Shown here: piece after piece, positions 2,249-19,163 of the stretch | How positions within the stretch are numbered: the first letter of the stretch is position 1 | Layout of the letters: each line of letters opens with the position of its first letter | DNA from: a virus | Length of the DNA stretch: 20,675 nt | IMG/VR virus record: IMGVR_UViG_3300000553_000305 | Coordinates: 2,018-22,692 of that record | Reading direction: 5' to 3' (one strand) | Program-made: the position numbers and the translations under genes | Notes under the pieces: model-generated | The model's input: only the letters and a program-made list of their open reading frames with translations | What the model was told of the DNA's origin: nothing | Databases searched by the model: none

Positions 2249-2752
2249 ATGGCAAATCAACCTAGGCAATACAAATACACTTCTACCAAGGAGTATCACG
2301 ATGCATTTCCCTGCGCTTATCGTCAGTGGCGAGCAGACAGTCATTGTAACTTAATTCATGGCTATTCATTTAGTATGAAGTTTTACTTTGGCACAGATGA
2401 CTTAGATGTGCGTAATTGGGCGGCTGACTACGGCGGACTCAAAGAACTTAAACAAGTGCTAGAAAGCCAATTTGATCACACGCTGTTAGTAGCAGAAGAT
2501 GATCCCGAACTTGAAACATACAAGTTGCTACAAGAAAAAAACATGGCCAAACTAACTATCCTACCTAAGTTAGGGTGTGAAGGACTAGCAGATCAACTAT
2601 ACAAGTATGTTAATGGTGTGTATATTCCAGACATGTGGGGTAATGCAGAAGCAGATCGGCTATGGTGTTATCGTGTAGAAGTTCGTGAAACACAGAGTAA
2701 TATGGCCCACCGTGAAGGACATCGTGAGTGGAATGAAGACCTCTTCGCCTAA
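2249..2752 (+). CDS. QueD-like 6-carboxytetrahydropterin synthase family protein
   Basis: 167 residues. QueD converts dihydroneopterin triphosphate to 6-carboxytetrahydropterin in 7-deazaguanine (preQ0) synthesis. Family signs here: C33 four residues before H37 (HCNLIHGYSF, matching KCxxLHGH), F75-D-H-T for the FDHxxL motif, and VEVRET at 143-148 for the conserved C-terminal Glu segment. Odd: two of the three usual zinc-ligand histidines appear to be tyrosines (Y24 in FPCAY where FxAAH is expected, and Y39 in LIHGY where LHGH is expected). I recall cyanophage homologues with similar changes, so it may be a phage-specific branch. It has its own promoter and AGGAG site. A queE-like gene lies 3.3 kb downstream, supporting a deazaguanine role; retained activity is uncertain. 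Confidence 0.8.
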   Translation: MANQPRQYKYTSTKEYHDAFPCAYRQWRADSHCNLIHGYSFSMKFYFGTDDLDVRNWAADYGGLKELKQVLESQFDHTLLVAEDDPELETYKLLQEKNMAKLTILPKLGCEGLADQLYKYVNGVYIPDMWGNAEADRLWCYRVEVRETQSNMAHREGHREWNEDLFA

Positions 2753-3014
2753 GGTGGAAGAAATCCTAGACATACTCCAAGAGGAGTGTGGCGAAGTAAT
2801 TGTTGCTATTAGTAAGATCCGCCGTTTTGGTATTGACAATTCATACAAGGACGGCGGAACTCAACGTGAGCACTTGATTCAAGAGCTAGGAGATGTTACA
2901 CTATTAGTAGAGTTACTCAAGGCGCATGGTGTTTTCACAGAAGGCGAATTACATAAGGCACAAGTTAAAAAAAGTCAAAAATTAACCAAGTGGTCAACAA
3001 TATACAACAATTAA
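2733..3014 (+). CDS. MazG-like nucleotide pyrophosphohydrolase
   Basis: 93 residues from ATG 2733. In-frame GTG 2724 (preceded by GAAGGAC) is a credible alternative; the ATG at 2685 further back would overlap queD by 68 bases. Metal-binding signature of the all-alpha NTP pyrophosphatase family: E17-E-C-G-E21 in the first helix and E51-L-G-D54 in the second, with KIRRFG between. MazG-type enzymes cleave (d)NTPs, or in some phages ppGpp-like nucleotides, to monophosphates plus pyrophosphate. It overlaps the 3' end of the queD-like gene by 20 bases in another frame and is probably co-transcribed. The family is clear; the substrate cannot be read from the sequence. Confidence 0.82.
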   Translation: MKTSSPKVEEILDILQEECGEVIVAISKIRRFGIDNSYKDGGTQREHLIQELGDVTLLVELLKAHGVFTEGELHKAQVKKSQKLTKWSTIYNN

Positions 3015-3035
3015 TTCTTGCCAATAATATACGTA

Positions 3036-3043
3036 TATAAATA
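3036..3043 (+). promoter_or_regulatory. late-type promoter TATAAATA
   Basis: Exact match to the T4 late-promoter octamer in the short gap before the glycosyltransferase gene. The predicted start (~3049) is only about 3 bases upstream of the ATG at 3052, and no ribosome-binding site is visible. Confidence 0.6.
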
Positions 3044-3051
3044 TTCACACT

Positions 3052-3870
3052 ATGTCAAACGAATACAAAATAGCCATTATATTACCTACACGTGGGCGCA
3101 CCGAAGCACTCACACGCAGTCTTGTTGGACTGCTAGAAAAAGCTTCAGACTTAAATAACATTCAAGTTTTATTAGGTCTTGACAACGATGACGAAGTTGG
3201 GATTGCACATTTTCAAGAATCATTACAACCTACACTAGATGAAATGGGTGTTGATTATACTGCTATGACCTTTGAGCCATTGGGCTATAGTCGTCTTAAC
3301 GAATACATTAACAAGCTAAGTGAGAATTCTAGTGCCGACTGGATATTCTTTTGGAATGATGATGCTATTATGGAAAGTCAAGACTGGGATGTTGAAATTG
3401 TTAAACATACAGGCGAATTTAAACTTTTAGCCGTTCATACTCACAATGATCATCCTTACAGTATATTTCCTATAGTTCCAAGAGAGTGGCTAGATCTTAT
3501 TGGTCATTTAAGTTTACATTCAATGACCGATGCTTGGTTAAGCCAAATTGCTTATATGGTAGATATTTGGGAACGAATTGATGTTCATGTTTTACACGAC
3601 CGCGCCGATCTTACTGGTAACAACTTAGATGCAACATACAAGCAACGTGAATTATTAGAGGGTAATCCTAGTAATCCTAGAGATTTCCATCACCCTCACA
3701 TGACTGTATTGCGTATGCAAGAGTGTGATGCAATTAACGAATATTTAAAATCAAAGGGATTAAACCATACTTGGTGGGAACGTGTCAAAGCTGGAGAACA
3801 AGATCCTTGGGAACACCTTCGTGAAAATGATACCAATGGACAAATGCGCCAGTTTAAAATCAAACGATGA
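3052..3870 (+). CDS. family 2-like glycosyltransferase (GT-A fold)
   Basis: 272 residues. N-terminal strand and loop IAIILPTRGR (8-16) is the usual nucleotide-sugar-binding opening of GT2 enzymes. L-D-N-D-D-E (43-48) and W-N-D-D (101-104) supply acidic residues, the latter at the place of the metal-binding DxD. The C-terminal ~100 residues are rich in Trp, His and Asp, as in phage-encoded GT2 proteins. It would move a sugar from a nucleotide-sugar to a glycan, protein or DNA acceptor. It is coupled by ATGA to an FkbM methyltransferase and then a GT8-like gene, so the three probably act on one glycan. No signal peptide or membrane segment is seen, so it is cytoplasmic. The acceptor is unknown. 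Confidence 0.8.
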   Translation: MSNEYKIAIILPTRGRTEALTRSLVGLLEKASDLNNIQVLLGLDNDDEVGIAHFQESLQPTLDEMGVDYTAMTFEPLGYSRLNEYINKLSENSSADWIFFWNDDAIMESQDWDVEIVKHTGEFKLLAVHTHNDHPYSIFPIVPREWLDLIGHLSLHSMTDAWLSQIAYMVDIWERIDVHVLHDRADLTGNNLDATYKQRELLEGNPSNPRDFHHPHMTVLRMQECDAINEYLKSKGLNHTWWERVKAGEQDPWEHLRENDTNGQMRQFKIKR

Positions 3871-4577
3871 ATTTTGAAATAACCACCCGTCATGGACGAA
3901 TGATTTTGCCTTACACGCAGGATCATATTGCCCGTGAATTAATCAATCGCGGTGAGTATGAGTGGTATGTTGTAGAAATTTTACAACAATTAGTAAAGGG
4001 TCATACCACAGGTATTTTTCTAGATATCGGCACCAATCTAGGCACAGTAACCTTGCCAATGGCCAGAGATTTTCCTAACATGACTGTTCATTCATTTGAA
4101 ATACAGCCATTTTTAATTTCGTCTTTACGCACAAATCTTGATCTTAACAAACTCACTAATGTTATTATACATGAGCACGGATTGGGCAACAAGCCAGATA
4201 CAATCACTATCAATCAGCCTGATTATACACAAGCAGGCAACGTAGGTGCCCTTAGTTTAAATCCTAAAGTTCAAGAGAACAGCGATATTGCTGTTGGACA
4301 CGGTGATAAAATCACTGTCAAAGTAGTTCCTTTAGATACAATTGATTTTGATCAGCCTATACGTGCTATTAAGTTAGATGTAGAAGGTTACGAACAATTT
4401 GTAATTGAAGGTGCATTAGAAACATTAAAAAAACACAACTATCCTCCTGTTGTCTATGAGCTCTGGGGATATAATGCCTGGTGGAACGAAGAACGTGCCC
4501 AGCTTGAAAAACTTCTAAACGATCTCGGTTACGCTGTTACTAAAATTGATGACACAGGCATTGCTATACACAAATGA
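3867..4577 (+). CDS. FkbM-family SAM-dependent methyltransferase
   Basis: 236 residues. FLDIGTNLG (51-59) is the SAM-binding glycine loop, H-S-F-E-I-Q (75-80) holds the acidic residue for the ribose, and I-K-L-D-V-E-G-Y-E (168-176) is the FkbM hallmark, followed by a VVYELWG strand. FkbM enzymes typically O-methylate sugars or polyketide hydroxyls. ATGA overlaps at both ends (with the GT2-like gene before it and the GT8-like gene after it) indicate a coupled three-gene unit, so a sugar hydroxyl is the likely target, perhaps capping a glycan. Length and motif order are normal for the family. Confidence 0.9.
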   Translation: MNFEITTRHGRMILPYTQDHIARELINRGEYEWYVVEILQQLVKGHTTGIFLDIGTNLGTVTLPMARDFPNMTVHSFEIQPFLISSLRTNLDLNKLTNVIIHEHGLGNKPDTITINQPDYTQAGNVGALSLNPKVQENSDIAVGHGDKITVKVVPLDTIDFDQPIRAIKLDVEGYEQFVIEGALETLKKHNYPPVVYELWGYNAWWNEERAQLEKLLNDLGYAVTKIDDTGIAIHK

Positions 4578-5299
4578 AAAACTATCTAGTAAAAAGCCTT
4601 TTTCAAGTTAAAGATGCAGATTGGAAAGTTTTAGATCGCAGTCACGAGGCTAATTTATTTGACACTTATCTTGCCATGCACGAAGTTAGTGCCGAAAGTT
4701 ATCGAGCATTTCTCGAAGGCGATTGGGAATTAAAGTTTATCACCGGCGAAGTCAGTCAAATCAATGAAGCATTTGAACGAACCTTTTGGGCTATACACGA
4801 CTTGTGGCATTCTGAGCCGTGTAATATTCTATATACCGACCCAGATACTATTGCAATCAAGCACTTCGATCCTTGGGATCAGTATAAACATTTTTTAATG
4901 TTTAATCATACTGATCCAAAACAGTTCGATCGACCAAACCCATACGGCAGAAGTTATCCACACTTCTTTAATGCTGGTGTAAGGTATTTTCCTTCTACTA
5001 TGTCTGAAACTATATGGAAGTTAGGCACAGACATGGCCAAGACTTGGGACTATGCAACCTACGATACCGAACAGATTATCCTAAATGCCATGCTTTGGGA
5101 TCAAGGAATCAAACTAGAAGAAGCACTAGATCCTACTGTGGCTTGGCAACTTTTCCATCCAGATTTAACATTTGGACAGCAGTGGAATGGGTGCTCAATA
5201 CAAGACGCTCGAATACTACACCTACATAGTAGTCGTGGTGCTGATAACCGATTGGCATTTATGCGTCATACCGCTGGTCAATTAGGCATTAAAATTTAA
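4574..5299 (+). CDS. GT8-like nucleotide-sugar glycosyltransferase
   Basis: 241 residues. Read as a GT-A transferase from a metal-binding D89-P-D-T92 preceded by a hydrophobic strand (NILYTD), then HFFNAGVRYFPS (130-141), the 'NAGV' segment typical of GT8/GT77-type enzymes, and D164-TEQIILN, the helix that usually follows. It ends with a HLHSSRG phrase near the C-terminus where GT8 enzymes have a conserved His. It is the last gene of the ATGA-coupled glycan block and is followed directly by a new promoter. The acceptor is unknown. The family call is moderately secure; a broader 'nucleotide-diphospho-sugar transferase' label also fits. Confidence 0.7.
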   Translation: MKNYLVKSLFQVKDADWKVLDRSHEANLFDTYLAMHEVSAESYRAFLEGDWELKFITGEVSQINEAFERTFWAIHDLWHSEPCNILYTDPDTIAIKHFDPWDQYKHFLMFNHTDPKQFDRPNPYGRSYPHFFNAGVRYFPSTMSETIWKLGTDMAKTWDYATYDTEQIILNAMLWDQGIKLEEALDPTVAWQLFHPDLTFGQQWNGCSIQDARILHLHSSRGADNRLAFMRHTAGQLGIKI

Positions 5300-5328
5300 T
5301 TGACTTTGTAAGATAATCATTGTATAAT
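5300..5328 (+). promoter_or_regulatory. sigma-70 promoter with +1 at the start codon
   Basis: TTGACT (5300-5305), 17-base spacer, TATAAT (5323-5328), then 6 bases to ATG 5335. With standard spacing the first transcribed base is the A of ATG, giving a leaderless mRNA. Confidence 0.85.
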
Positions 5329-5334
5329 AGTAAC

Positions 5335-5844
5335 ATGAAAAAAATCTATTACTCTTGGCAGGATGTCGAGAATCAAACACAAGAAATTCTACGTCAAATG
5401 GCACTGGACCCGTGGCGTCCTGACTATGTTGTAGGACTTACACGTGGAGGACTAGTGCCGGCTAATCTAATTAGCCAATACCTAGAAGTCCCAATGGAAA
5501 CTTTAAAAGTAAGTTTACGTGATGGCAACGAAGGCGAAAGTAACTTATGGATGGCCGAAGATGCATTTGGACACGGGCAGGAAGTTGCTAAGAATATCCT
5601 TATTGTGGATGATATTAATGATAGTGGTGCTACACTAAATTGGATTAAGCAAGACTGGCAATCCAGTTGTTTTCCAACAGAACCGCATTGGAATTTCGTA
5701 TGGAGTAATAATGTTCGTGTTGCTGTGTTAGTAGATAACGAAGCAAGTGCTAGCGAATTAAAAATTAGTTATTCGGCCGTCGATCTAAATAAGGCTGAAG
5801 AAGATTCGTGGATTGTTTTTCCTTGGGAAGATTGGTGGAAATGA
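5335..5844 (+). CDS. type I phosphoribosyltransferase
   Basis: 169 residues from ATG 5335. An upstream in-frame TTG at 5320 is rejected because it lies inside the promoter. The PRPP-binding signature I-L-I-V-D-D-I-N-D-S-G-A-T (88-100) is unmistakable, and G-L-T-R-G-G-L (34-40) is the PPi loop of hypoxanthine/xanthine-guanine-type enzymes. These transfer phosphoribose from PRPP to a nucleobase in salvage. The C-terminus is Trp-rich (FPWEDWWK). Message probably leaderless; stop coupled to the next gene by ATGA. A purine base is the best guess for substrate, from the PPi-loop resemblance to Gpt; a nicotinate-like or modified-base substrate cannot be excluded. Confidence 0.88.
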   Translation: MKKIYYSWQDVENQTQEILRQMALDPWRPDYVVGLTRGGLVPANLISQYLEVPMETLKVSLRDGNEGESNLWMAEDAFGHGQEVAKNILIVDDINDSGATLNWIKQDWQSSCFPTEPHWNFVWSNNVRVAVLVDNEASASELKISYSAVDLNKAEEDSWIVFPWEDWWK

Positions 5845-6038
5845 AAATACATTATCGTAAACCTTTATTAATAGAACAAATGAAAGCGGCTATTGCTAAT
5901 AGCAAAGAGCCAATTGATCATTTTGAATTAACTCAGGAAGAATTTAATCAACATTATAGCATGTTTGATAAATCAAATCAACGAGATGGAAGTGTTCAAT
6001 ATTTTTATAAAAGTTATCCAATAAAGGTTACACAATGA
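5841..6038 (+). CDS. small conserved-type hypothetical protein
   Basis: 65 residues from ATG 5841, chosen because it overlaps the previous stop as ATGA; an earlier in-frame ATG at 5808 would overlap 37 bases. Not recognised. It looks like a small helical protein: an amphipathic helix (LLIEQMKAAIANSK), an acidic stretch (FELTQEEFNQHY) and an aromatic C-terminal strand (VQYFYKSYPIKV). It sits between the phosphoribosyltransferase and queE, coupled to both by ATGA, so it is likely made in amounts matched to them. Confidence 0.6.
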   Translation: MKIHYRKPLLIEQMKAAIANSKEPIDHFELTQEEFNQHYSMFDKSNQRDGSVQYFYKSYPIKVTQ

Positions 6039-6895
6039 AGATCAAGGTAAGTGAAATATTTTACAGTCTACAAGGCGAAGGTCGCTTTGTTGGTGTTCCT
6101 AGCGTGTTCCTAAGAACATATGGTTGTAACTTTACCTGTGCAGGGTTTGGATGCAAGCCTGGTGAAAAGTCTACAGGTGCAGATGATGTAGCTGAAGTTG
6201 TTCATATGTATAATGACTTTACAGAGCTGCCTTTGGTAGAAACGGGCTGTGACAGTTATGCATCGTGGCATCCTGCATTTAAACATTTGAGTCCTAACTA
6301 TACTACGGAAGAACTTGTAGATCGTATGTTAGCACTAACACCTAACAAGATGTGGACACAAAATAATGGTAATGATGTTCACTTGGTTATTACAGGTGGT
6401 GAGCCTTTGTTAGGTTGGCAACGTGCTTATGCAGAATTACTAAGCCATCCACGTATGGCAGACTTAAAGAATATCACATTCGAAACTAACGGCACTCAAG
6501 CACTACACGAAGATTTTAAACAGTATCTAAGCGATTGGGAAGGTGCTGTTCCTGGACGTGATGTTACATTTAGTGTTAGTGCTAAGTTAAGTGCAAGTGG
6601 TGAAACTTGGGAAGATGCTATTCAGCCTGAGATTGTTAATAGCTATCAGACCTATGGACATGCTTATCTCAAGTTTGTGGTCGAAACACTAGATCATGTC
6701 AACGAAGCTGTTCGTGCTGTAGATGCTTTCCGTGCAGGCGGATTTACGGGTGTTGTATATCTAATGCCACAGGGTGGTGTTGTTACTCCATATGACGCAA
6801 ACAAATTAAACATTGCCAACATCTGCTGTGAACGTGGATTTAATTATAGTCCACGATTGCATGTGGACTTATGGGGCAACGGTTGGGGCAAGTGA
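6035..6895 (+). CDS. queE: QueE-like radical SAM protein (7-carboxy-7-deazaguanine synthase family)
   Basis: 286 residues. QueE rearranges 6-carboxytetrahydropterin to 7-carboxy-7-deazaguanine. The opening FYSLQGEG (9-16) and VFLRTYGCNFTC are classic for QueE, and T-G-G-E-P (120-124) is the radical-SAM GGEP strand that binds the SAM amino group. The cluster motif is unusual: C31-x3-C35 is present, but the third position of CX3CX2C is a Phe; the next cysteines are C40 and C72. There is also a ~50-residue insertion between the cysteine loop and the core, containing ETGCDSYASWHP, which I recall from phage QueE-like proteins. ATGA-coupled upstream, GTGA-coupled downstream. With the QueD-like gene it suggests a deazaguanine pathway; queC and folE would have to be elsewhere or from the host. 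Confidence 0.82.
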   Translation: MKIKVSEIFYSLQGEGRFVGVPSVFLRTYGCNFTCAGFGCKPGEKSTGADDVAEVVHMYNDFTELPLVETGCDSYASWHPAFKHLSPNYTTEELVDRMLALTPNKMWTQNNGNDVHLVITGGEPLLGWQRAYAELLSHPRMADLKNITFETNGTQALHEDFKQYLSDWEGAVPGRDVTFSVSAKLSASGETWEDAIQPEIVNSYQTYGHAYLKFVVETLDHVNEAVRAVDAFRAGGFTGVVYLMPQGGVVTPYDANKLNIANICCERGFNYSPRLHVDLWGNGWGK

Positions 6896-7167
6896 AAGTA
6901 AGATACGGCAATCATATGCCACCAATCCCAGAATCTATTGGAATCACTATGCCAGATGAATACAACGACAAAAAATTTTTAAGTCGTGCCACACCTGAAC
7001 TTAAATGGTCCTTATGGCCTAGACGGTGCCATTCTAGTGGACGACGTTTGTGGCTAACTCAGGCCTATCGTGCTCGGTATATTATTACTGGCCCCGAAGA
7101 TCCGGCTGTATGGACTCGCTGGTATAGCACTACGGAAATGCTTATATTGAAATTAAAAGGAAATTAA
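6892..7167 (+). CDS. hypothetical protein between queE and nadE
   Basis: 91 residues from GTG 6892, chosen because GTGA overlaps the queE stop; an ATG at 6871 would overlap by 25 bases and has no better site. Not recognised. Visible: a Pro-rich start (MPPIPESIG), a middle with many Arg and Trp residues (LWPRRCHSSGRRLWLTQAYRAR) and a C-terminal ITGPEDPAVWTRW phrase. The basic, Trp-rich middle could contact nucleic acid, but that is speculation. It ends one base before the NAD synthetase start. Confidence 0.6.
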   Translation: MKVRYGNHMPPIPESIGITMPDEYNDKKFLSRATPELKWSLWPRRCHSSGRRLWLTQAYRARYIITGPEDPAVWTRWYSTTEMLILKLKGN

Positions 7168-7168
7168 A

Positions 7169-7927
7169 ATGACGTTACAAGATCAAATTACAGAATGGAT
7201 TAGAGACTATGCTGTCAAAGCTAACATGCGATCGTTAGTAGTAGGCATCAGTGGCGGCATTGATTCAGCTGTAGTCAGCGCACTTTGCGCTCGCACAGGA
7301 ATCAACACGATTGCTGTTACTATGCCTATCCGTCAACGTCCCGAATTACACGATCTTAGTATGCGCCAAGGACAGTGGCTTACACAGAATTACTCAAATG
7401 TATTTCACGAAGTAGTAGATTTAACTTCAACACTTGATCAATTCGAAACGGCCATGCTCACTTGTAATAGTCGGTATGATAACTTGCTGGGGTTTGCCAA
7501 CAGCCGCAGTCGACTACGCATGGTTACCTTATATCAAATTGCACAGAGCCGACAAGGTATTGTAGTAGGCACAGGTAATAAAGTAGAAGATTTTGGTGTA
7601 GGGTTTTATACCAAATATGGCGACGGTGGTGTAGATATCAGTCCTATTGCTGATTGCTACAAAACAGAAGTATGGCAAATGGGACGTGAATTAGGCATTC
7701 TACAAGATATTATCGATGCTCCTCCTACTGACGGTCTATGGGATGATGGACGCACTGATCAAGATCAGCTAGGCATGACTTATGCCGATTTGGAACTGGC
7801 TATGCAAATTGACGAAGGTGAATTTATTACCGAAGATTCATTCCTACAACAAAAATGTGAAAAGTATCGCGCTATTCGTCGCCGCAGCCTACATAAAATG
7901 AATCCTATTCCTGTGTTTAAAAAATAA
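7169..7927 (+). CDS. nadE: NH3-dependent NAD+ synthetase
   Basis: 252 residues. NadE adenylates nicotinate adenine dinucleotide and amidates it with ammonia to NAD+. The N-type ATP-pyrophosphatase P-loop G-I-S-G-G-I-D-S (26-33) is intact, followed by N-S-R-S-R-L-R-M (111-118), G-T-G-N-K-V-E (134-140) and K-Y-G-D-G-G (149-154), the conserved substrate-binding segments, and a C-terminal YRAIRRRSLHKM segment. No glutaminase domain, so free ammonia would be the nitrogen source. Slightly shorter than the E. coli enzyme (275 residues). Starts one base after the preceding gene, with AAAGGAAA upstream. In a phage it could replenish NAD+ during infection or counter NAD-depleting defences (inference). 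Confidence 0.93.
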   Translation: MTLQDQITEWIRDYAVKANMRSLVVGISGGIDSAVVSALCARTGINTIAVTMPIRQRPELHDLSMRQGQWLTQNYSNVFHEVVDLTSTLDQFETAMLTCNSRYDNLLGFANSRSRLRMVTLYQIAQSRQGIVVGTGNKVEDFGVGFYTKYGDGGVDISPIADCYKTEVWQMGRELGILQDIIDAPPTDGLWDDGRTDQDQLGMTYADLELAMQIDEGEFITEDSFLQQKCEKYRAIRRRSLHKMNPIPVFKK

Positions 7928-7990
7928 TAGCCAGGCATTCAAAACCAGATAAATTAGTCTGTAGCACTCAATATTATCTCAAGGACTAAA

Positions 7991-9229
7991 ATGAAAAAAA
8001 TAGGATTTATTGGCATCGGCAAGCTGGGTCTTGACTGTGCAGAAGTATTTGCTGAAAAGCACGAAGTTCGTGGTTACGATATCTATCCACGCACTAGCGA
8101 TAGTGTAAAAGTATGCAGTATCGAAGAAGTAGTTAACGAAAGCGAATGGATTTTTATCGCTGTTCCTACTCCGCATGCCGAAGGTTACGATGGGTCAATC
8201 CCATCAAGCCACATGACTCCTAAGGACTTTGGTCACGATGCTGTTATTGATGCAATTAATAACGTAAACAAGTATGCCACAGATTCTAAAAAAGTAGTTT
8301 TAATTTCTACAGTCTTACCAGGAACAACTCGTAATAAATTTGTTCCGTTACTAGACAAAAAACATCAGTTTGTTTACAATCCATATTTGATCGCCATGGG
8401 CTCAGTTAAATGGGACATGGTCAATCCCGAGATGATCATGTTAGGCACCGAAGACGGTAGCTTAACTGGTGTTGCTGGTGAGCTTCGTGAACTGTATGAA
8501 ACAATCATGCAGAACAATCCACGCTACGAAGTTGGCACATGGGATGAGTGCGAAGCTATTAAGATTTTTTACAACACATTTATTTCGGCTAAAGTTGGTC
8601 TTGTAAACATGATTCAAGACTTTGCTATGAAGATTGGCAATATTAACGTAGACGTTGTCACTGATGCTCTTGCTAAGTCTACCATGCGTATCATGGGTCC
8701 CAAGTATATGACTGCAGGTATGGGCGATGCAGGTGCTTGCCATCCACGTGACAATATTGCCTTGCGTTGGCTAGCAGCAGAATACGATATCGGTTATGAC
8801 TTGTTTGATACAGTCATGCATGCTCGTGAAATTCAAGCTAAAAACTTGGCCTTGTTCTTAGTTGATCAAGCACAACGTCTTAGTTTGCCGATTGTAATTC
8901 ACGGTAAAGCCTACAAACCAGACGTTGAATACTGTATCGGTAGTTACTCAACTCTAGTTGGATTTTATGTTCGAGAAGCAGGATTACCTGTTGTTTACGT
9001 TGATCCACTAGCAGATGACCGCACACATTGCCTAGACACAATTGATGGTCCAGCAGTATTTTTATGGGCACATAATCGCAAGATCACTTACGAATATACC
9101 GGTGATCAACTTGACACACAACCATACTGCGAAATTCAACCAGGTAGTGTTATTGTTGATCCGTGGCGTAAGTTACCATTTGACATGCCCGGTATCGCTG
9201 TGTTACACTATGGTAATACTAGAACCTAA
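7991..9229 (+). CDS. UDP-glucose/GDP-mannose dehydrogenase family protein
   Basis: 412 residues with the family's three parts. The NAD-binding N-terminus has G-I-G-K-L-G (8-13), D30 ending the second strand, and S-T-V-L-P-G-T-T (106-113). The central helical part has E-A-I-K191-I-F-Y-N and the catalytic-loop Cys250 in AGACHPRD, corresponding to the GGxCxPKD thiol that forms the thioester. The C-terminal domain has G-K-A-Y-K-P-D-V (305-312). Such enzymes oxidise a nucleotide-sugar C6 alcohol to a uronic acid in two NAD+-dependent steps. The Arg usually found near the end of the last motif is not obvious (CIGSYS). AAGGAC provides the ribosome-binding site. It follows nadE, which makes its cofactor, and precedes the SGNH pair. 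Confidence 0.85.
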   Translation: MKKIGFIGIGKLGLDCAEVFAEKHEVRGYDIYPRTSDSVKVCSIEEVVNESEWIFIAVPTPHAEGYDGSIPSSHMTPKDFGHDAVIDAINNVNKYATDSKKVVLISTVLPGTTRNKFVPLLDKKHQFVYNPYLIAMGSVKWDMVNPEMIMLGTEDGSLTGVAGELRELYETIMQNNPRYEVGTWDECEAIKIFYNTFISAKVGLVNMIQDFAMKIGNINVDVVTDALAKSTMRIMGPKYMTAGMGDAGACHPRDNIALRWLAAEYDIGYDLFDTVMHAREIQAKNLALFLVDQAQRLSLPIVIHGKAYKPDVEYCIGSYSTLVGFYVREAGLPVVYVDPLADDRTHCLDTIDGPAVFLWAHNRKITYEYTGDQLDTQPYCEIQPGSVIVDPWRKLPFDMPGIAVLHYGNTRT

Positions 9230-15419: not shown

Positions 15420-15722
15420 ATGTTAATAAATTATGGTGACACAACTTATCTCACTCGTTGGAACGCAGTTGCACAGACCAACACGGCATTTGGTCGCCCT
15501 CTCACTGACAGTGAACAATCACAACTTGATGCCGAGCGAGCATCATTATTAAGTTCTGGAGTAATAAATGCAACTATTACACAATCTGGAACAACTACTA
15601 ATTATTGGTCCACTTTGGATGCTGCCAACGCCTGGGTAGCCGTTTGCAACACATTTAATCCGCCGCCAACAACGGCCACAGTGATCAATCCACCAGTGCC
15701 ATATGTTCCACCGGCAGGTTAA
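15420..15722 (+). CDS. hypothetical protein with Pro-rich tail
   Basis: 100 residues. AAAAAGGAG 8 bases before the ATG is one of the strongest ribosome-binding sites in the window, suggesting high expression. The N-terminal part reads INYGDTTYLTRWNAVAQTNTAFGRPLTDSEQ, the middle is Ser/Thr/Ala-rich, and the last ~22 residues are a Pro/Thr-rich tail (NPPPTTATVINPPVPYVPP) likely to be extended. This looks like a small structural or adhesin-type protein, possibly exposed; no family is recognised and no signal peptide is seen. Confidence 0.65.
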   Translation: MLINYGDTTYLTRWNAVAQTNTAFGRPLTDSEQSQLDAERASLLSSGVINATITQSGTTTNYWSTLDAANAWVAVCNTFNPPPTTATVINPPVPYVPPAG

Positions 15723-15780
15723 TTAGCAGTAAGTAAAGAACTGTGTAGTGGCTGACTTAAAAAATATGCCACAAAATAAA

Positions 15781-16140
15781 ATTCGTTGAAGATAGAAGTA
15801 GGGTGAGCAAGACTCGGGTTCAAGTCCCGACATCTCCACCGAAGTATATTGTGATGCGTTACCCAGCGTGAAGTTCAGAGGGTGAAAACAGTATGCTTCG
15901 GTGGGGATGAATATGGTATCGATTGGCACACAAGGGCTATTGGAGAATCGGCAAAGCCAAAGCCGTTAGGACTGGGACTACTCGGTCGAAGAAGCAAAAC
16001 TCGTAAATGCAACCGCATCTACAGGCGAAGTAACTGTTTCAGGTAAGAACATCAAGTTCTCTGCTCGCACAGTGAAAGCCGAATCTTTTGCAGTTTAATC
16101 ACCGCAATAGGGTAATTATACCTCGTAACAGAAAATAATA
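15781..16140 (+). ncRNA. ssrA: circularly permuted (two-piece) tmRNA
   Basis: The acceptor piece comes first: T stem TCGGG/CCCGA with loop TTCAAGT, then acceptor strand CATCTCC (15831-15837), A and CC. The coding piece starts with GGGGATG (15903-15909), which pairs with CATCTCC over 7 bp (one G-U) and continues as TGAnnnTGGnnTCGAnnGG, the conserved tmRNA 5' segment. The bases between extend the same helix (ACCGAAGTATA with TATGCTTCGGT), as expected of a permuted precursor whose loop is excised. P2-like pairings join the pieces: CAC/GTG, CTAT/ATAG and GAAT/ATTC, in nested order. The reading frame from GCA 16009 to TAA 16098 gives a 29-residue tag ending KAESFAV. A terminator follows at 16142. 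Host SmpB would be needed. The 5' and 3' ends given are approximate. Confidence 0.9.
16009..16098 (+). other. tmRNA tag-peptide reading frame
   Basis: From GCA 16009 the frame reads ATASTGEVTV SGKNIKFSAR TVKAESFAV and stops at TAA: 29 residues against about 10-16 in most bacterial tags. The frame was chosen because it alone is open this long and ends in a tag-like hydrophobic sequence. The exact resume codon is inferred; one codon either way is possible. The end lacks the usual terminal Ala-Ala. Confidence 0.75.
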
Positions 16141-16141
16141 G

Positions 16142-16165
16142 AACCCGCTTCGGCGGGTTTTTTTT
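16142..16165 (+). terminator. rho-independent terminator after the tmRNA
   Basis: AACCCGC/GCGGGTT stem closed by a TTCG tetraloop and followed by a T-run reaching 16165. It separates the tmRNA from the porin unit. Confidence 0.95.
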
Positions 16166-16230
16166 ATACGCAGTTAACTACAAAACTCCCAAGAAAGTCT
16201 GCAAAAATTGCTGGCCATTAGTGAAAACCA

Positions 16231-16284: not shown

Positions 16285-17028
16285 ATGAAAAAAGTTCTAT
16301 TAGCAATTCTTGCTCTGGCTGGCTTTACTGCGGCTCACGCTCAGGTAACTGGCAATTTAGGTTTGACCTCTGACTACCGCTTCCGCGGCATTAGTCAATC
16401 CCAAAATGCTCCTGCTGTCCAAGGCGGCGTTGACTACACTCACTCTAGTGGTTTGTATATTGGTAACTGGAACAGCAGTGTTTCTAGTCAACTTTATACC
16501 AACGGTGCTGGTGTTGTGAGCGACTTGTATGCTGGATATAAGAAAGATATCTACAAAGGTATCACAATTGATGTTGGTAGTTACAACTACTTCTATCCAC
16601 GTGCTACTGTAAACGGCACAGGTAGTAACTTTGACACATACGAAGCGTTTGCTGGTGTTGGTTATGGTCCAGTTAGCGTTAAGTATAGTCAAACATTAGG
16701 TAATGGTTACCTTGGAACTGTTAATGCTAAAAACACAAATTACACACAAGCTGATCTAGCTCAATCATTTGAGCCATTGAGTGCTAAGTTGAAAAATTTG
16801 AGTTTCTTAGCTCATTACGGTCATACCGCAGTTGCTAATCATTCAACATTGAGTTACAATGATATCAACGTTGGTTTAGGTTATGCCTTGCCAAAAGATT
16901 GGACAATCACTGGCAAGTATTATACTAACAGCAATGTTAGTGCTGCCGCTCAAACTGCAGATACTGTAAATGGTCAAAAACTTTATCGTAATGCATTTGT
17001 GGCTAGTCTGACTAAAACATTTGAATAA
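16285..17028 (+). CDS. TorF-family outer-membrane porin
   Basis: 247 residues. A classic signal peptide (MKKVLLAILALAGFTAAHA, cut before Q20) is followed by VTGNLGLTSDYRFRGISQS, the hallmark opening of TorF-type putative porins, then Gly/aromatic-rich alternating strands (GGVDYTHSSGLYIGNWNSS, DLYAGYKKD, YNYFYPRA) and a C-terminal strand ending in Phe-Glu (SLTKTFE). Such proteins form beta-barrels in the outer membrane of Proteobacteria. An AAAAGGAAA ribosome-binding site lies upstream. A terminator on each side makes this a self-contained unit. The gene type is bacterial; I infer acquisition from the host lineage. Possible roles: nutrient uptake, receptor change or exclusion of other phages. 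Confidence 0.85.
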   Translation: MKKVLLAILALAGFTAAHAQVTGNLGLTSDYRFRGISQSQNAPAVQGGVDYTHSSGLYIGNWNSSVSSQLYTNGAGVVSDLYAGYKKDIYKGITIDVGSYNYFYPRATVNGTGSNFDTYEAFAGVGYGPVSVKYSQTLGNGYLGTVNAKNTNYTQADLAQSFEPLSAKLKNLSFLAHYGHTAVANHSTLSYNDINVGLGYALPKDWTITGKYYTNSNVSAAAQTADTVNGQKLYRNAFVASLTKTFE

Positions 17029-17781: not shown

Positions 17782-17865
17782 GGAGAAGAAGCATCAATGG
17801 TGATGCAGTGGACTGTAAATCCGCCGCCTTTGGCACGACTGGTTCGATCCCAGTATTCTCCACCA
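17782..17865 (+). tRNA. tRNA-Tyr(GTA)
   Basis: 84 bases, class II with variable stem GCC/GGC, CCA encoded. Anticodon stem GTGGA/TCCGC with loop CTGTAAA; T arm ACTGG-TTCGATC-CCAGT. Position 7-66 of the acceptor stem is mismatched (G-A). Confidence 0.95.
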
Positions 17866-19074: not shown

Positions 19075-19163
19075 GGAGGGTTATCTGGGCTGGGCCCAGC
19101 TCTGTCTTGAAAACAGGTGGACTGCGCAAGCGGTTAGAGTTCGATTCTACTATCCCTCCTCCA
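19075..19163 (+). tRNA. tRNA-Ser(TGA), T arm imperfect
   Basis: Class II: variable stem ACTGC/GCGGT with GCAA loop; anticodon arm TCTGT-CTTGAAA-ACAGG. The acceptor GGAGGGT pairs over 6 bp with TCCCTCC (7-66 is T-T) and position 73 is T, not the G usual for Ser. With the normal TTCGATT loop only two T-stem pairs form; an alternative TAGA/TCTA stem shifts the loop. It may be impaired. Confidence 0.8.

Follow-up and report, generated by a model that had tools for sequence, protein, structure and literature searches.

The window, a 20,675-nucleotide stretch of DNA from an IMG/VR virus record of 25,205 bases, contains a circularly permuted, two-piece tmRNA gene of a phage at positions 15781-16165 (Table 1). 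The Rfam covariance model RF04321 (tmRNA_permuted) matched positions 15781-16041 with 63.8 bits (its gathering score being 47), and with 64.9 bits when the search was confined to 15700-16220. ARAGORN independently called a permuted tmRNA at the same locus. Beyond this score, the gene possesses the features of an RF04321 member, namely the piece order with a spacer, the G3-U70 pair and A73, the P2 helix, and a resume codon, tag frame and stop. The betaproteobacterial model RF01850 (beta_tmRNA) matched the tRNA-like part alone at 35.5 bits, below its gathering threshold of 84 bits, indicating that the coding half has diverged. Matches to the Rfam families OrzO-P and rsmX were rejected, being sub-threshold and due to terminator similarity. 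An earlier sequence-only reading had proposed a two-piece tmRNA with the acceptor half preceding the coding half, and the RF04321 alignment, ARAGORN and the fold all bear this out. The check that it suggested with Infernal and Rfam models came out in its favor for RF04321 but not for RF01850.

Table 1. Features of the phage tmRNA gene, in window positions.
Feature	Positions	Strand	Basis or remark
Acceptor (3' tRNA-like) piece, transcribed first	15781..15840	+	RF04321 alignment; ARAGORN 3' tRNA domain
P2-like strand AUUC	15781..15784	+	pairs with 15945-15948
P2-like strand GAUAG	15791..15795	+	pairs with 15937-15941; one compensatory A-U/G-C change in relatives
P2-like strand (15801-15805, 15808-15810)	15801..15810	+	pairs with 15927-15931 and 15923-15925; two compensatory changes
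T-arm UCGGG-UUCAAGU-CCCGA	15814..15830	+	
Acceptor 3' strand CAUCUCC, discriminator A15838, then CCG	15831..15841	+	sequence
Intervening spacer, 62 nt, predicted to be removed; adds 15 pairs to acceptor helix	15841..15902	+	fold
Acceptor 5' strand GGGGAUG; predicted RNase P 5' end of coding piece	15903..15909	+	G3-U70 kept
Hairpin GACUGGG-ACUA-CUCGGUC, between tRNA-like domain and tag	15970..15987	+	fold
Tag reading frame: UAAAU, resume codon GCA, 29 codons ATASTGEVTVSGKNIKFSARTVKAESFAV, stop UAA	16009..16098	+	
Intrinsic-terminator-like hairpin and T-run	16140..16165	+	

The acceptor stem pairs 15831-15837 with 15903-15909 (CAUCUCC/GGGGAUG) and includes G3-U70. This pair is the identity element for alanine, and A73 also belongs to alanine charging. 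The discriminator is followed by CCG instead of CCA, so that the terminal A of CCA is not encoded. In the predicted fold, acceptor and spacer form a single hairpin of 22 pairs (15831-15852 with 15888-15909), comprising the 7 acceptor pairs and 15 more. The spacer thus lengthens the acceptor helix as the sequence-only reading had claimed, although by 15 pairs rather than the approximately 11 given there. The only candidate pseudoknot element in the predicted fold around the tag is the hairpin at 15970-15987. The terminator-like stem and T-run at the 3' end agree with the earlier claim that the gene has its own terminator.

Comparison with relatives supports this architecture, including the three nested P2-like pairings that had been described from the single sequence. 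In six related sequences, 99% of the cells in the 17 pairs of the P2 helices were standard-paired, with compensatory double changes at three pairs, while control alignments in which the partner strand was slid by one to three columns were at most 54% paired. Over 73 parsed loci, the acceptor stem was formed by eleven different sequence pairs and G3-U70 was found in all 73; the parser favored such placements, but position 70 is nonetheless set by the distance from the T-stem. The 3' end is encoded as CCA in 27 copies, CCG in 27 and CCT in 17, and the presence of CCA in merely 27 copies implies CCA addition or trimming. The contact residues of the T-loop and D-loop also co-vary. Among distinct combinations, TTC loops occurred with GG (19 of 19) and [T/G]GC loops with AG (9 of 9), three combinations that the script had labeled T/AG (e.g., ACAAGGTT) having been re-read as GG. 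The equivalent of T-loop position 55 (U/G) changes with D-loop residue 18 (G/A) in phage tmRNAs at L131, L134, L143, L145, L151, L153, L156, L159, L173, L174 and other loci. Overall, these patterns portray a real, functional-looking phage tmRNA gene.

The gene sits within a tRNA-rich region, in keeping with the translation-support setting proposed for it. A tRNA-Tyr(GUA) at 17782-17862 and a tRNA-Ser(UGA) at 19075-19159 were both missed by ARAGORN; the latter scored just under the threshold of the selenocysteine-tRNA model, but its anticodon is UGA. Directly downstream of the tmRNA, positions 16285-17028 encode an outer-membrane-protein-like Gcw_chp protein (PF09694), and the relative L117 has an outer-membrane-protein-like gene with a porin-like signal peptide downstream of its tmRNA. 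The metabolic genes at 2249-9229 encode a 6-pyruvoyl tetrahydropterin synthase family (QueD-like) protein, an NAD synthase, an FkbM methyltransferase, a UDP-sugar dehydrogenase and, assigned by eye, a QueE-like protein. The NAD synthase shares 50-57% identity with those of T4-like Pelagibacter and cyanobacterial phages. A search of 15 large relatives yielded no tyrosine integrase, which fits the apparently lytic phage of the earlier reading; the window's own record is a 25-kb fragment.

Regarding the source of the gene, six relatives with the same tag exceed the RF01850 threshold (L083, L084, L088, L092, L101 and L113, with 127.9, 129.2, 117.0, 115.2, 110.9 and 89.1 bits, respectively). Because these relatives pass the beta_tmRNA threshold, it is likely that the gene descends from a host gene of betaproteobacterial type. 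The suggestion that the phage took its tmRNA from a host is made likely by these relatives, but not by the score of the window copy itself.

The unusual part of the gene, which the sequence-only reading overlooked, is its tag. The tags of tmRNAs are usually short degrons with an Ala-Ala end. The window tag, ATASTGEVTVSGKNIKFSARTVKAESFAV, has 29 residues, about three times the usual length, and its C-terminus is FAV, that is, Ala-Val in place of the Ala-Ala of an ssrA-type degradation tag. A scan of IMG/VR with the tag alignment detected relatives of this tag on 113 contigs, the best 80 of which were used for comparisons. All of these best 80 of 113 have TAAAT followed by a resume codon GC[A/C] and a stop after 28-30 codons, and the encoded tag ends in LAV in 51 and in FAV in 29. 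A readable long tag is present at 31 loci, the window's own among them, of the RF04321 matches linked to the NAD-synthase clade. The carriers are very large phages of freshwater type, with contigs of up to 344 kb. A variant of 27 residues, ANVNKTVTVSGKNIKFSARSAKEALAV, is encoded in a 347-kb record, and L201 and L202 encode the variant AKASTGEVTVSGKNIKFRTLAAKGQSLAV, whose middle seems to have undergone a local frame change, with the LAV end retained. Searches of 84,980 bacterial and archaeal genomes and of 50,697 annotated phage records (INPHARED) recovered no relatives of the long tag, and a DNA-level search of isolate phages returned nothing but terminator-like and short T-arm matches. Within each phage record, the peptide occurs once, in the tmRNA only.

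The tag sequence is conserved as a peptide. The 45 distinct 29-codon sequences encode 38 peptides, in all of which A28 and V29 are invariant (45 of 45), and a core of 13 residues, VTVSGKNVKFSAR, is conserved. For codons 5-20, the in-frame pN/pS was 0.26, compared with values of 1.25 and 1.59 when the whole tag was read in the two other frames. A minimum spanning tree assigned 61 synonymous and 34 amino-acid changes to codons 5-20, against an expected synonymous share of about 30% (p ~3e-12, counting repeated and possibly recombinant changes as independent). Counted in the same way, codons 27-29 had 7 synonymous changes and 1 amino-acid change, while comparable constraint was absent from codons 1-4 and 21-26. 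These counts indicate that the tag core is under purifying selection at the peptide level. Neither Pfam nor PHROGs contained a match for the tag. Its PDB matches to repeat proteins arose from many weak repeats, none of them significant singly, and were rejected as repeat artefacts; a by-eye likeness to the C-termini of HU proteins received no support from Pfam. An AlphaFold model of the tag was uninformative (mean pLDDT 55), and no fold is claimed.

Other members of the same NAD-synthase clade possess ordinary tags, for example ANDSQFALAA (L097), ANASNDETFALAA (L114), ANDDVYAEDLRLAA (L115) and ANASNDEVFALAA (L117). The RNA upstream of the tag is 71.5% common to L117 and L121 over 193 aligned columns. 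When the ordinary ANASNDEV-FALAA is compared with the long ANASTGEV-...-LAV, 20 of 24 bases are alike at the 5' end and an ungapped match covers 10 of 14 bases at the 3' end. Together with the close relatives that have canonical tags, these matches suggest that the long tag arose when an ordinary ANAS(N)DEVFALAA-like tag gained an internal insertion and its final A was replaced by V, an order of events that hangs on the short matches of 20/24 and 10/14 bases. A bacterial source for the canonical ANASNDE tag was also sought, but the sole match among genome contigs, in a Chitinophagales MAG, fell within a gene that encodes a protein and was rejected as a chance match.

The larger phages also encode proteases that could act on such a tag. 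The first four records searched, all above 300 kb and belonging to the NAD-synthase clade or the long-tag group (G042, G044, G082 and G084), as well as G049 and G085, all encode ClpP, ClpX and a ClpA-like ATPase (loci L203-L223). The phage ClpX has about 400 residues with a zinc finger and intact Walker, GYVG and IGF-type loops, the ClpA-like ATPase has about 760 residues, and there are one or two ClpPs. A scan of IMG/VR for ClpX confirmed 253 matching stretches. In Escherichia coli, no part of the ssrA degron matters more to ClpXP than the terminal Ala-Ala, which is contacted by Thr199 and His230 of ClpX; loss of these two residues strongly raises the KM (PMC7652416). One or both of these residues are altered in all five of the LAV-tag phages checked, which have S/Q, A/S, T/V (with V202I), S/(T or gap) and S/T at positions 199/230. 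Five phages with ordinary tags have S/N, S/S, T/N, T/H and T/H, and both phages with E. coli-like ClpX loops thus carry ordinary tags. However, G042 and G092, which are close relatives with ALAA tags, also possess a ClpX without His230 and Thr199. With ordinary-tag members of the clade altered too, a strict coupling of the loop changes to the LAV end is not established on these ten phages. The association of ClpX changes with the tag end is a lead toward a possible co-evolution.

Based on the current evidence, this gene is probably a working permuted tmRNA of betaproteobacterial type in a clade of huge tailed phages, which would use the SmpB of the host and a phage-specific tag of about 29 residues. 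The gene form, G3-U70, the P2 helices, the resume context, the peptide conservation, the restriction to phages and the Clp set of the larger relatives can be read directly from the sequences. After transcription, tRNA-processing enzymes would cleave the precursor into its acceptor and coding pieces, which would remain base-paired with each other, and the RNA would be charged with alanine, bind host SmpB and enter stalled ribosomes. A search of 25 related or ClpX-bearing records revealed no SmpB, so the host protein must serve should the system work. Rescued proteins would then gain a phage tag, about 29 residues long, with an [L/F]AV end in place of a host-type ending. This could re-route them, the phage Clp enzymes reading the tag, host ClpXP degrading the tagged proteins more slowly, or both. 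Phage Clp handling or slowed degradation would be the most plausible fate of these proteins.

If the long LAV tag were a private degron for the phage ClpX or ClpA with ClpP, proteins from rescued ribosomes could be cleared without host proteases. This explanation is possible but falls short of an even chance. The Clp set with its intact loops, the altered tag-end-reading residues of the LAV-tag phages and the invariance of A28 and V29 all argue for it. In contrast, the similar loop changes of the two ALAA-tag phages mean that the pairing may reflect clade history, no SspB was found in 16 records, and several long-tag records, all of them fragments, showed no ClpX. An alternative in which ribosomes are freed without rapid destruction of the product would follow if the AV end were a poor substrate for host ClpXP, leaving truncated proteins longer-lived. 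The importance of the terminal Ala-Ala in E. coli and the conservation of the AV end point in this direction, but hydrophobic L-A-V ends may still undergo degradation and the conservation of the 13-residue core is left unexplained, making this account rather unlikely.

That core could instead be a binding or nascent-chain element, for example one that recruits a phage adaptor or acts in the ribosome exit tunnel, with a secondary role as a degron. The strongest selection, at codons 5-20, does lie away from the C-terminus. However, the searches of Pfam, PHROGs and PDB gave no homologous domain or partner and the AlphaFold model offers no help, and this possibility is given a low probability as well. 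Host tmRNA genes commonly serve as integration sites (PMC4131195), and the gene might accordingly be a functionless relic acquired as an attachment site or passenger. This is very improbable given the peptide-level selection, the covarying stems, the wide conservation and the lack of an integrase in the large relatives. Within the preferred reading of a working phage tmRNA, a fully private form of trans-translation, in which phage tmRNA and host SmpB add a phage-only tag that is handled by phage ClpX/ClpA-ClpP with altered loops, would uncouple rescue from host degradation. We regard this extension as doubtful. If true, ribosome rescue in infected cells would be separated from the degradation system of the host. 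The phages may also provide a host-independent pair of tag and protease. A long tag that many phages conserve, that has no Ala-Ala end and that none of the searched bacterial genomes contained suggests that phages rewrite the message on rescued proteins, and it makes testable whether a phage keeps a tmRNA to free ribosomes or to control the fate of the tagged protein.

The permuted gene form is already known from phages, and the novelty of this gene is the conserved long tag without an Ala-Ala end. A survey of 402 phages reports 133 tmRNA structures, 53 of them two-piece (PMC9004378), and the importance that the sequence-only reading attached to a phage-borne permuted tmRNA as such was therefore overstated. 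A tmRNA database of 2025 includes 79 phage sequences, and its tags are most often 10 residues long (PMC11915505). No description of the long tag was found in the open-access papers searched. The betaproteobacterial permuted tmRNA (RF01850) resembles the phage gene in its piece order, tRNA-like domain, spacer and UAAAU-GCA context, but its tag is short and ends in ALAA. The two-piece tmRNAs of marine phages, including Melnitz, Pelagibacter phages and cyanophages, are likewise complete permuted ssrA genes, and Melnitz is a T4-like myophage without an integrase; its ssrA is assigned to an alphaproteobacterial lineage, unlike the betaproteobacterial-type lineage of the window (PMC9004378). Huge phages with both tmRNA and SmpB are known (PMC7162821), whereas SmpB was not found among the records searched here. 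The one-piece tmRNAs of mycobacteriophages and Bacillus phage G are also phage-encoded parts of trans-translation, while the window gene is permuted (PMC4131195). In mycobacteriophage DS6A, a phage-altered tmRNA consists of the TLD only and lacks a tag, and molecules of this kind inhibit the host tmRNA (PMC4131195). In the phages described here, the tag has instead been lengthened and conserved.
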